From positions 1-45,181 of the forward strand of contig JAVHLJ010000020.1 in NCBI GenBank assembly GCA_031082205.1: 45,181 nt of DNA, in the 5' to 3' direction. Each line of letters begins with the position of its first letter. Positions within the stretch are counted from its first letter, which is position 1. The translations under genes were made by a program, and so were the position numbers. The stretch comes from Elusimicrobiales bacterium. GTDB taxonomy: Bacteria; Elusimicrobiota; Elusimicrobia; Elusimicrobiales; UBA9959. This document shows positions 24,185 through 26,629 of this stretch, in pieces. The notes beneath the pieces are model-generated. The model did no database searches. It saw only the letters and a program-made list of their open reading frames with translations, and was not told the origin of the DNA.

Positions 24185-24616
24185 TTACTTGCCTTCTATA
24201 AGGTTCAAAACGGCCCGCTTGACCTTCCCCATCACCTCGGCGTAAAGCTTGTCGTCGCCGCCCATCGGATCGCGCAGGTCGCCTTCTTCGCCCAGGTACT
24301 CCATTATCTTCCGCGTCTTCCGGATGCCCTGGGGGAAACGGTCGGCCAGCGCCTCGCGGTGCGCTTCCTCCATCACCACCACGAGGTCCGCCCAGTCTAT
24401 ATCCTCGTCGCGCACCAGCGCCGGCTTATGCGAGAGGTTGCGCACGCCCTCGGCCGCCAGGAACTCGGCCACGGCCTCGGTCATCGCCGAATAAGGCTGC
24501 GCCGCCGTCCCGCGCGACCGCGCCTCGAAACCCTTGCCCGCGCCGTAATGCGCCAGCAGCTTCTCCGCCGCCGGACTCCGGCACATATTCCCCGTGCAAA
24601 CGAACAGAACTTTCAT
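24185..24616 (-). CDS. Low-molecular-weight protein tyrosine phosphatase (Wzb-like)
   Basis: Cytoplasmic phosphatase of 143 residues. The P-loop CTGNMCRS (C7 nucleophile, R13) opens the protein as in all LMW-PTPs, and the general-acid Asp lies in LRDPMGG near the C-terminus. In exopolysaccharide loci such enzymes dephosphorylate the Tyr-rich tail of a Wzc-type kinase; that kinase is encoded at 28263, so this is the likely partner. It could instead act on other phosphotyrosines. ATG 24616 is preferred over an upstream in-frame start at 24664 because it places the P-loop at the expected position. The gene is divergent from the ligase gene. Confidence 0.9.
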   Translation of the reverse strand: MKVLFVCTGNMCRSPAAEKLLAHYGAGKGFEARSRGTAAQPYSAMTEAVAEFLAAEGVRNLSHKPALVRDEDIDWADLVVVMEEAHREALADRFPQGIRKTRKIMEYLGEEGDLRDPMGGDDKLYAEVMGKVKRAVLNLIEGK

Positions 24617-24632: not shown

Positions 24633-24655
24633 TAAGGCAACAGCGGACGCAGGCG

Positions 24656-24820
24656 AAGGCTCACCTAAGAAAAACCTTCCGAAGCCGCGAGCTTACGGAG
24701 TATGCGCCGGAGCTAGCCGGTGGGATCGCATCTCGAGGGCGCGGAGGCGCATACGAGCGCGAGCGGCGAGGAGGGAGCGCGAGCACGGTGTGCCGAGCGC
24801 GTTTTTTCGTGGTGAGCCTT
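24656..24820. repeat. 165-bp structured element with 10-bp terminal inverted repeats
   Basis: AAGGCTCACC (24656-24665) and GGTGAGCCTT (24811-24820) are perfect inverted repeats. Just inside, AAAAAC (24670-24675) can pair with GTTTTT (24801-24806). A second perfect inverted pair, GTATGCGCC (24700-24708) and GGCGCATAC (24746-24754), forms an inner stem. Next to it, GAGCGCGAGC occurs twice (24755-24764, 24775-24784). No ORF is plausible. It could be a MITE-like mobile element or a structured RNA between two divergent genes. Confidence 0.65.
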
Positions 24821-24851
24821 TGACGGCGGCCGAATAGTTCTTCCTTGTTAA

Positions 24852-24868: not shown

Positions 24869-26629
24869 ATGCAGGCGGTACTGATACTGTCATTAATATT
24901 CGCGCCGCTGGCCTTCGCCTCCGTCGAGCCGTGGGCCCTGGGCCTCCTCCAGGCCGCCTACTTCGCCCTCGCCGCCCGCCTCTATATCAAAGGCCTCCAC
25001 GTCAACCCCAACCCGCTTTACAAGAACCTCATCCCGGCAGTCCTGGCCATCGCAATCATCGGCCTTCTTCAGTCCCTCAACCAGAACCCCGTCACCGCCC
25101 CGTCGGCCACGCTGTTCACCGCCTGGCGCCCCGCAACCCTCGCCGCCGCGCATCTCTGGCTCTTCTACGCCGCCGTCCTCTTCACCGTGCCGCAGCTCAT
25201 CGACACCCCCGAGCGCTTCCGCCGCCTGATGTGGACGATATTCATAATGGGCACGATAGTAGCGCTGCTTGGCATGCTGCAGAAGACCGGCGACAACACC
25301 CTGGTCTACGGCCTGCGCAAAGTCGCCGGCCAGCCCTTCGGCCCCTTCGTTAACCGCGATCACGGCGCCCATTTCCTGGCTATATCGGCCATGTGCGGCC
25401 TGGGACTTTTCTTCTCGGGCCTGCGCCCGCTCTTCGCCCAACAGAGCCACACCCGCCTCTTCGACCTGCTCGCCGTGCAGTTCATAAAGCTGGTCATGCT
25501 CTCCGCGCTCATCTACGGCATAGTGCATGCCGGCTCGCGCGGAGGGGGACATTCCTTCGCCGCGGCCGCCGCCATCACGGGATTTGCCGCCGCCGCCGCG
25601 CTGCGCTCGCGCAGGCAGAAGACCGTCGCCATAACGCTGATGACGCTGGCCGTCGTCGGCTATGGCATACTGCTGGCCAATAACGACAGGATGGCGGGTC
25701 GTATTTCTGGCGGTTGGGATAATTCCGTTAAGTATCGCTTCTCGATGTACGAAAGCTCCCGCCGCATGCTGGCCGATTTCCCGGCCTTCGGCGTCGGCCT
25801 CAAGGCCGTGCAATACGCCTTCCCGCATTACAAAAGCGATCCTCTCAAGGAAACCCAGCTCGTACTGCACGTCCACAGCGACTGGATAGAGCTCTTCCTC
25901 CAAAGCGGCCTCGCCGGCGGCCTCATCTACCTCGCCGGCCTCCTCGCCGCGCTCATCCATTTCTTCAGGAGCTGGCGCAGTAACTCCTCGTTCACGCTCA
26001 AATGCCTGCAGGGCGGCGCGATAGGCGCGGTCATCGCCGCCTGCGCCCATAACTTCACCGAGTTCGCCTCACAGATGCCCGCCAACGCCCTGCTGTTCTT
26101 CGTCGTGATCGGCGCCCTGGCCGGGCCCGGCACCCACCGCAGGGGCCGCGACGAAGACCAGGACGATCCCGAACCCGCCCCGCCGCCCCGCGCCCGGGCC
26201 AACGCCGCCGCGCTGATCGCGGTACTGCTCATCGCCGCCGCCATACCCCGCTTCATAGCGTGGCGTGCCGACTTCCTGGCCAAGGACAAAGACATCGCTC
26301 TCAAGACAAAGCTCGCCCACCGGCGGGCCTCGCTCCGATGGTATCCCGACCCGCAGGCCGCCTTCCGCCTGGGCGCCGATATCTACAACAACGCCCTCAA
26401 GGATAAGGACAACGCCACCCGCTGTCCCTCCATGGCCGAGGCTCAAAAAGCCATCGCCCTCTACCTCCAAACAGCCCCCGTCAACCAGGACCTCAACCGC
26501 CTCAATAAAAACCTGCGTCTCCAGCTGGCCCATTGCTACAACCCCCGGCCGGAGCCCAAAAAGCCTGCCGCCAAAGCCAAAACCCCCAAGAACCCGCCCC
26601 CGCCCACCCGCTCCGCCTCCCGCCCGTAA
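24869..26629 (+). CDS. O-antigen ligase/polymerase (WaaL/Wzy superfamily)
   Basis: Multispanning membrane protein of 586 residues with about 11-12 TM helices. The Wzy_C hallmark is a long outer loop (about 270-340) that contains NSVKYRFSMYESSRRMLADFPAFGVGLKAVQ and HVHSDWIELFLQSGLAGG, including the conserved Arg and HxD/E residues. This type joins or polymerises lipid-linked glycans in the periplasm. The C-terminal part (about 430-586) has one more TM helix, a periplasmic helical region and a Pro/Lys-rich tail. A second Wzy-like protein is encoded at 32250, so one is probably the polymerase and the other the ligase. The start at 24869 is chosen for its position relative to the promoter; ATG 24851 lies inside the promoter. 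Confidence 0.8.
   Translation: MQAVLILSLIFAPLAFASVEPWALGLLQAAYFALAARLYIKGLHVNPNPLYKNLIPAVLAIAIIGLLQSLNQNPVTAPSATLFTAWRPATLAAAHLWLFYAAVLFTVPQLIDTPERFRRLMWTIFIMGTIVALLGMLQKTGDNTLVYGLRKVAGQPFGPFVNRDHGAHFLAISAMCGLGLFFSGLRPLFAQQSHTRLFDLLAVQFIKLVMLSALIYGIVHAGSRGGGHSFAAAAAITGFAAAAALRSRRQKTVAITLMTLAVVGYGILLANNDRMAGRISGGWDNSVKYRFSMYESSRRMLADFPAFGVGLKAVQYAFPHYKSDPLKETQLVLHVHSDWIELFLQSGLAGGLIYLAGLLAALIHFFRSWRSNSSFTLKCLQGGAIGAVIAACAHNFTEFASQMPANALLFFVVIGALAGPGTHRRGRDEDQDDPEPAPPPRARANAAALIAVLLIAAAIPRFIAWRADFLAKDKDIALKTKLAHRRASLRWYPDPQAAFRLGADIYNNALKDKDNATRCPSMAEAQKAIALYLQTAPVNQDLNRLNKNLRLQLAHCYNPRPEPKKPAAKAKTPKNPPPPTRSASRP

Follow-up and report, generated by a model that had tools for sequence, protein, structure and literature searches.

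What occupies the gap between two divergent genes is the question raised by one locus within a 45,181-nucleotide stretch of Elusimicrobiales DNA, hereafter the window. The gap lies between a gene for a low-molecular-weight phosphatase (24185-24616, - strand) and one for a Wzy_C O-antigen ligase-like protein (24869-26629, + strand), which are divergent, as a preliminary description of the window had stated. That description had reported a 165-bp element bounded by perfect 10-bp inverted repeats and had proposed that it is either MITE-like or a structured RNA. Its reading of the letters was accurate: AAGGCTCACC (24656-24665) is perfectly complementary to GGTGAGCCTT (24811-24820), the two spanning exactly 165 bp from end to end; the A/T-rich inner flanks AGAAAAAC and GTTTTTTC are capable of pairing; a 9-bp inner stem can form between GTATGCGCC (24700-24708) and GGCGCATAC (24746-24754); and GAGCGCGAGC is present twice (24755-24764 and 24775-24784). 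The 10-bp repeats are part of a longer pair of arms of 32 nt with 75% complementarity.

The inserted unit and its empty sites

In another genome of the same genus (G003), both flanking genes are 86-89% identical to those of the window and lie next to each other without the element. Alignment to this empty site (G003:C151:7759) places the whole inserted element, of about 215 bp, at 24633-24847 on the + strand, with ends uncertain by a few bases. The 165 bp first taken for the whole element are thus its inner part. Comparison with other copies located a degenerate 5' end of the AAGG(AG)ACAGCCGGG type, characteristic of the own-genus subfamily, at 24634-24650, and the 3' end CCGAATAGTTCTTCCTTG at 24830-24847. 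Copies from the window's own genus have matching ends, with the consensus TAAGGAGACARCCGGGGG on the 5' side and CCCGGMATAGTTNTTCCTTA, the family consensus, on the 3' side.

At further loci, presence and absence of the element vary among about 30 species. Target-site duplications, which the preliminary description had suggested looking for, were not clear at any of three same-genus empty sites, where the flanks have diverged. The G003 empty site (G003:C151:7740-7770, L087) consists of a perfect palindrome, AATTTTAGCATTAATGCTAAAATT, in a gap of about 40 bp between two divergent genes, and could be a shared promoter or operator that was split in the window by the insertion. We rejected the idea that the outer arms are generally pre-existing target palindromes: the empty sites of two other loci (L100 and L134) lack the arms, which means that the arms arrive with the insertion or form soon afterwards. 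In a third genome (G002), the same phosphatase/ligase gap holds an unrelated 1.2-kb insertion, which carries a gene for a 390-aa DUF1016/YhcG PDDEXK nuclease (L088:2031-3203, G002:C45) in place of the hairpin element.

A forked hairpin and its covariation

All copies of the family keep one forked, three-way-junction hairpin, consisting of a long outer stem (P1), an internal loop, a second stem (P1b) and two arms (P2 and P3). In the window copy, RNA folding and the cmsearch alignment place the two strands of P1 at 24643-24665 and 24811-24831 on the + strand, containing the left and the right 10-bp repeat, respectively. P1b pairs GAAAAACC (24669-24676) with GTTTTTTC (24801-24808), and reads GCAAAACC/GGTTTTTGC in most copies. 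The P2 arm (24684-24767) has a GCCGC/GCGGC stem and a tandem G.A motif, in which C-GA-G at 24688-24691 faces C-GA-G at 24760-24763. The 9-bp inner stem belongs to an extension of P2 (GTATGCGCC...GGCGCATAC, 24700-24754) that is found only in some own-genus copies and is replaced elsewhere by a short CTTGCGTAAG-type loop. The P3 arm (24776-24800) is a GCAC-GGT-GTGC hairpin with the second GAGCGCGAGC copy; a run of T comes after it, and one terminator-like site lies within the window copy. Across the family, P2 and P3 usually carry the tandem G.A motif (C-GA-G / C-GA-G), the two being marked by the repeated GAGCGCGAGC.

Folded as RNA, the window copy reached a z score of -3.8, with none of 200 shuffles equally stable; folded as DNA it was more stable than 199 of 200 shuffles (z = -3.3), and its reverse strand folded more weakly (z = -2.4). 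A covariance model (R1) built from 42 copies matched the window copy at 24643-24831 with 80.3 bits and an E value of 1.8e-16, reaching that far because the arms continue outward past the 165 bp.

Covariation, a check that had been proposed for the RNA reading, is very strong. In a MAFFT alignment, 95.4% of cells are paired, compared to 71.7% in shuffles and at most 55% in slid versions. Both sides change at 34 of 43 pairs, and 378 cells carry a double change, compared to 112 after shuffling. Several double-changed pairs occur in each of five helices out of seven; the remaining two say little either way, since one is nearly invariant and the other has a single double-changed pair. The AT-rich genus g6 and two other families share the fold despite very different sequence, and unpaired motifs are conserved as well, namely the tandem G.A and the internal loop adjoining AGC.

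In the outer stem of the + strand, G.U outnumbers A.C by 50 to 11, and 26 sequences lean towards G.U while two lean the other way (sign test p = 1.5e-6, with related sequences non-independent). This suggests that selection acts on one polarity, the + strand, in single-stranded form, a signature common to RNA and DNA. Among 15 copies in one genome, 31 pairs have an identical 93-nt core, with outer arms on average only 65% alike (36-100%). The fit of an arm to its own partner in these copies is 0.95, compared to 0.73 to the arms of other copies. Since the outer arms vary from copy to copy, the supposed terminal repeats lack a fixed sequence. Elements at several orthologous sites have been retained with compensatory changes, or occur in opposite orientation (e.g. 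at the L100 locus), an arrangement open to either inversion or re-insertion.

Spread and genomic setting of the family

BLAST, likewise suggested at the outset as a test for multiple copies, returned six further long copies in the own genome, 81-93% identical (one of partial length), and many in the genus of the window. The element is accordingly neither unique nor unconserved. At E <= 1e-4, the own genome has 21 copies, two genus mates have 49 and 21, and G267 has 69; seven relatives searched in depth have 15-69 each. Among 295 Elusimicrobiota genomes, R1 matched in 39, nearly all of them from the window's family, with one genome from each of two other families; the remaining 256, which serve as a negative control, gave zero matches. 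The core DNA pattern occurred at 72 places in 84,980 species genomes, 62 of them in Elusimicrobia/Elusimicrobiales records and the other ten in records with no name beyond 'bacterium'. In every collection searched, the family is confined to Elusimicrobiota. The core pattern had no match in the viral contigs of IMG/VR, and carriage by phages was rejected on this ground. An Rfam scan at gathering and relaxed thresholds matched nothing, and a search of one literature collection for repeats in Elusimicrobia returned nothing relevant.

Many matches lie less than 200 bp from contig ends (L010, L015, L029, L037, L043), so that the repeats probably break assemblies and the copy numbers are underestimates. 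Several variants were also seen. A minimal variant of 53 bp (L035/L053, G000:C11:69536-69588), made up of outer arms and a short loop alone, is possibly a deletion product or the family ancestor. At L047 (G000:C72:749-960), a truncated copy is followed directly by the 5' end of another, as a nested or replaced insertion. Seven loci of genus g6 (L283, L286, L289, L291, L294, L297, L303) have a conserved TATCTTAAATGGGGTGGGA-like sequence about 30-40 nt upstream of the copies, which may be left over from a doublet partner. The own genus also has a second, longer repeat of about 300-480 bp, bounded on one side or on both by a GGAATAGTT-type end (L028 at about 1200-1520, L027, L032, L034, L036, L038, L040) and a differently structured interior (GGCCTGCGCGCATAGCGCGCCAGGCC, CCCGTCCGGCAGTGCCGG).

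The family is intergenic, with 129 of 131 analysed copies outside predicted genes. Relative to co-directional genes, 47 copies have the same and 49 the opposite orientation. Divergent gaps such as that of the window are under-represented (9 of 129 copies, compared to 52 of 278 background gaps of at least 40 bp, the background coming from two genomes and shared ancestry being uncorrected). Neighbouring copies less than 1 kb apart are arranged head-to-head in 19 of 19 cases, while those further apart have mixed orientations. Between the members of these doublets lie spacers of 16 to 661 bp, many of them A/T-rich and some with a small reading frame. Two doublets (L155:3148-3808 and L131:2855-3304) surround 450-661 bp of A/T-rich DNA with reading frames of 188 and 89 aa; the 188-aa frame, the one of the two that was scanned, had no Pfam match, and doublets may therefore carry cargo. 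No recurring gene was found beside copies, and a replication-strand bias was looked for, with a skew too weak to use.

Probable mobility, rival explanations and relation to known repeats

The empty sites, the copy number, the intergenic position with random orientation, the head-to-head doublets, the covariation, the fold shared with genus g6 and two other families, the G.U excess and the pattern of constant core and variable arms support a mobile element. We consider it probable, with some reserve, that the window copy is a mobile element of the REPIN/MITE type, dispersed and non-autonomous, which is recognised as a folded single strand and mobilised by an enzyme encoded elsewhere. In DNA that replication or repair has made single-stranded, or in an RNA intermediate, the hairpin would be recognised by its shape together with the conserved unpaired and G.A motifs. 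The enzyme, encoded elsewhere in the genome, would then cut or copy the hairpin and insert it into a different gap between genes. As has been suggested for REPINs, what moves may be the head-to-head doublet, of which singlets may be remnants or products, and copies would afterwards evolve through compensatory change. In this reading the window copy has just come to lie in a short gap between divergent genes, and its presence there can be explained without a function. Against mobility stand the negative searches for a mobilising gene given below and the lack of a clear target duplication. Moreover, the persistence of the element at certain orthologous sites, accompanied by compensatory change, could reflect a host function, and the lack of a gene-orientation bias gives no support to lagging-strand transposition.

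The main alternative, to which we assign a clearly lower but appreciable probability, is a structured RNA element or small-RNA family, whose transcript would fold and either act in cis (3'-end protection, bidirectional termination) or bind a protein. The half of the earlier proposal that named an RNA is borne out insofar as the covariation, which is RNA-like, is that of a structured single strand. The conserved unpaired motifs (tandem G.A, the internal loop adjoining AGC), the T run after P3 with its terminator-like site, the scarcity of copies in divergent gaps and a convergent site at which the element's place is taken by a plain terminator in a relative (L115 vs L228) point the same way. 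However, the random orientation to neighbouring genes argues against an ordinary cis-regulatory RNA, as transcription of half of the copies would yield the wrong strand. In addition, the window copy lies upstream of both of its divergent neighbours, the L100 locus keeps an ordinary terminator with or without the element, the distribution between species is patchy, and Rfam has no match. Static palindromes, whose complementarity is kept by template switching in a replication hairpin without transposition or function, would account for arms that match within a copy yet diverge between copies and orthologues, and inversion between the arms would fit the opposite orientations at orthologous sites such as L100. 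They leave unexplained the new insertions at empty sites, the near-identical cores at unrelated loci, the strict head-to-head doublets and the G.U excess, and we regard them as very improbable.

The other half of the proposal, a MITE, stands as far as the many dispersed copies and empty sites go, and falls short in that no clear target duplication was seen at the three sites, whose flanks are diverged, and no transposase was found beside copies. A classical MITE, moved by a DDE transposase that recognises terminal inverted repeats in double-stranded DNA, would agree with inverted ends, a size of 150-300 bp, the many copies and empty sites, and the TAAGGA-type termini common to own-genus ends. 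We nevertheless think it unlikely, as a sequence-specific transposase should not tolerate identical cores with almost wholly different outer arms, and recognition of terminal repeats does not need inner arms that covary; no consistent target duplication was seen at the sites compared either. The TAAGGA ends had prompted us to consider an IS630/Tc1-type mobiliser, which was rejected because the genus has no DDE_3 (IS630-type) transposase. A RAYT/Y1 mobiliser was also rejected: Y1 genes exist yet are unlinked to copies, since 20 Y1 transposase loci were free of elements to a distance of about 1.5 kb, and two genomes (G167, G222) have elements with no Y1 gene detected. A composite transposon, considered for a 6-kb stretch between a head-to-head pair (L275), was discarded since its interior holds molybdenum-cofactor and ABC-transport genes, as judged by sequence. 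Across the two transposase families and the neighbouring genes that the search covered, no transposase was linked to copies.

Among known repeats, RUP, ERIC and Correia elements are MITEs with TA duplication. The present family resembles them in size, inverted ends, intergenic position, non-autonomy and insertion proven by an empty site, but differs in having no fixed terminal repeat sequence, proven target duplication or partner transposase, and in an inner structure conserved by covariation. The attC sites and IS200/IS605 ends are recognised as folded single strands and have low sequence conservation, and attC sites occur in cassette arrays with conserved R boxes and a linked integrase; compared to these, our element is far longer and branched, with no arrays at the loci and no recurrent gene beside copies. 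The arrangement seen here, extragenic singlets and inverted doublets, has been described for REPINs (PMC3116915) and BIMEs (PMC8266576), which are REP doublets moved by RAYT Y1 transposases (PMC3116915, PMC8266576). The family shares with them a dispersed, extragenic, palindromic and gene-free nature, a variable doublet spacer and a predicted single-stranded hairpin. REPs, in contrast, are simple hairpins of 20-50 nt with a GTAG (or CGTC) tag and linked to RAYT, whereas this element is a three-way junction of 130-215 nt with no link to Y1 transposase genes. Neither tag is enriched (GTAG in 16 of 151 copies vs 26 in shuffles, CGTC in 23 of 151 vs 24); GGAG is enriched, but belongs to the stem in at least some copies. 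CGTC-tagged REPs are likewise repeated palindromes with mostly head-to-head dimers and without a dedicated transposase, but their 8-9 bp stems, 4-5 base loops and CGTC tag (PMC3733652) do not fit this element. As both the tag and a linked Y1 transposase are missing, we describe the family as REPIN/MITE-like in distribution and do not file it as a member of either.

It is conceivable, though we hold this only tentatively, that an Elusimicrobiota enzyme recognises a branched single-stranded structure with tandem G.A rather than a terminal sequence, which would make the family a new class of mobile nucleic acid; recognition of shape would leave the outer arms free to change while the core is copied intact. 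The elements are probably one source of assembly breaks in the genomes that carry them. The covariance model and the many natural filled and empty sites are of use in finding the mobilising enzyme, and the family offers a test case for selection on DNA hairpins versus selection on RNA. Compared to the short simple hairpins of known bacterial dispersed palindromes it is longer, branched and strongly covarying, and it is old enough for almost complete sequence divergence, yet probably still spreading within genomes.
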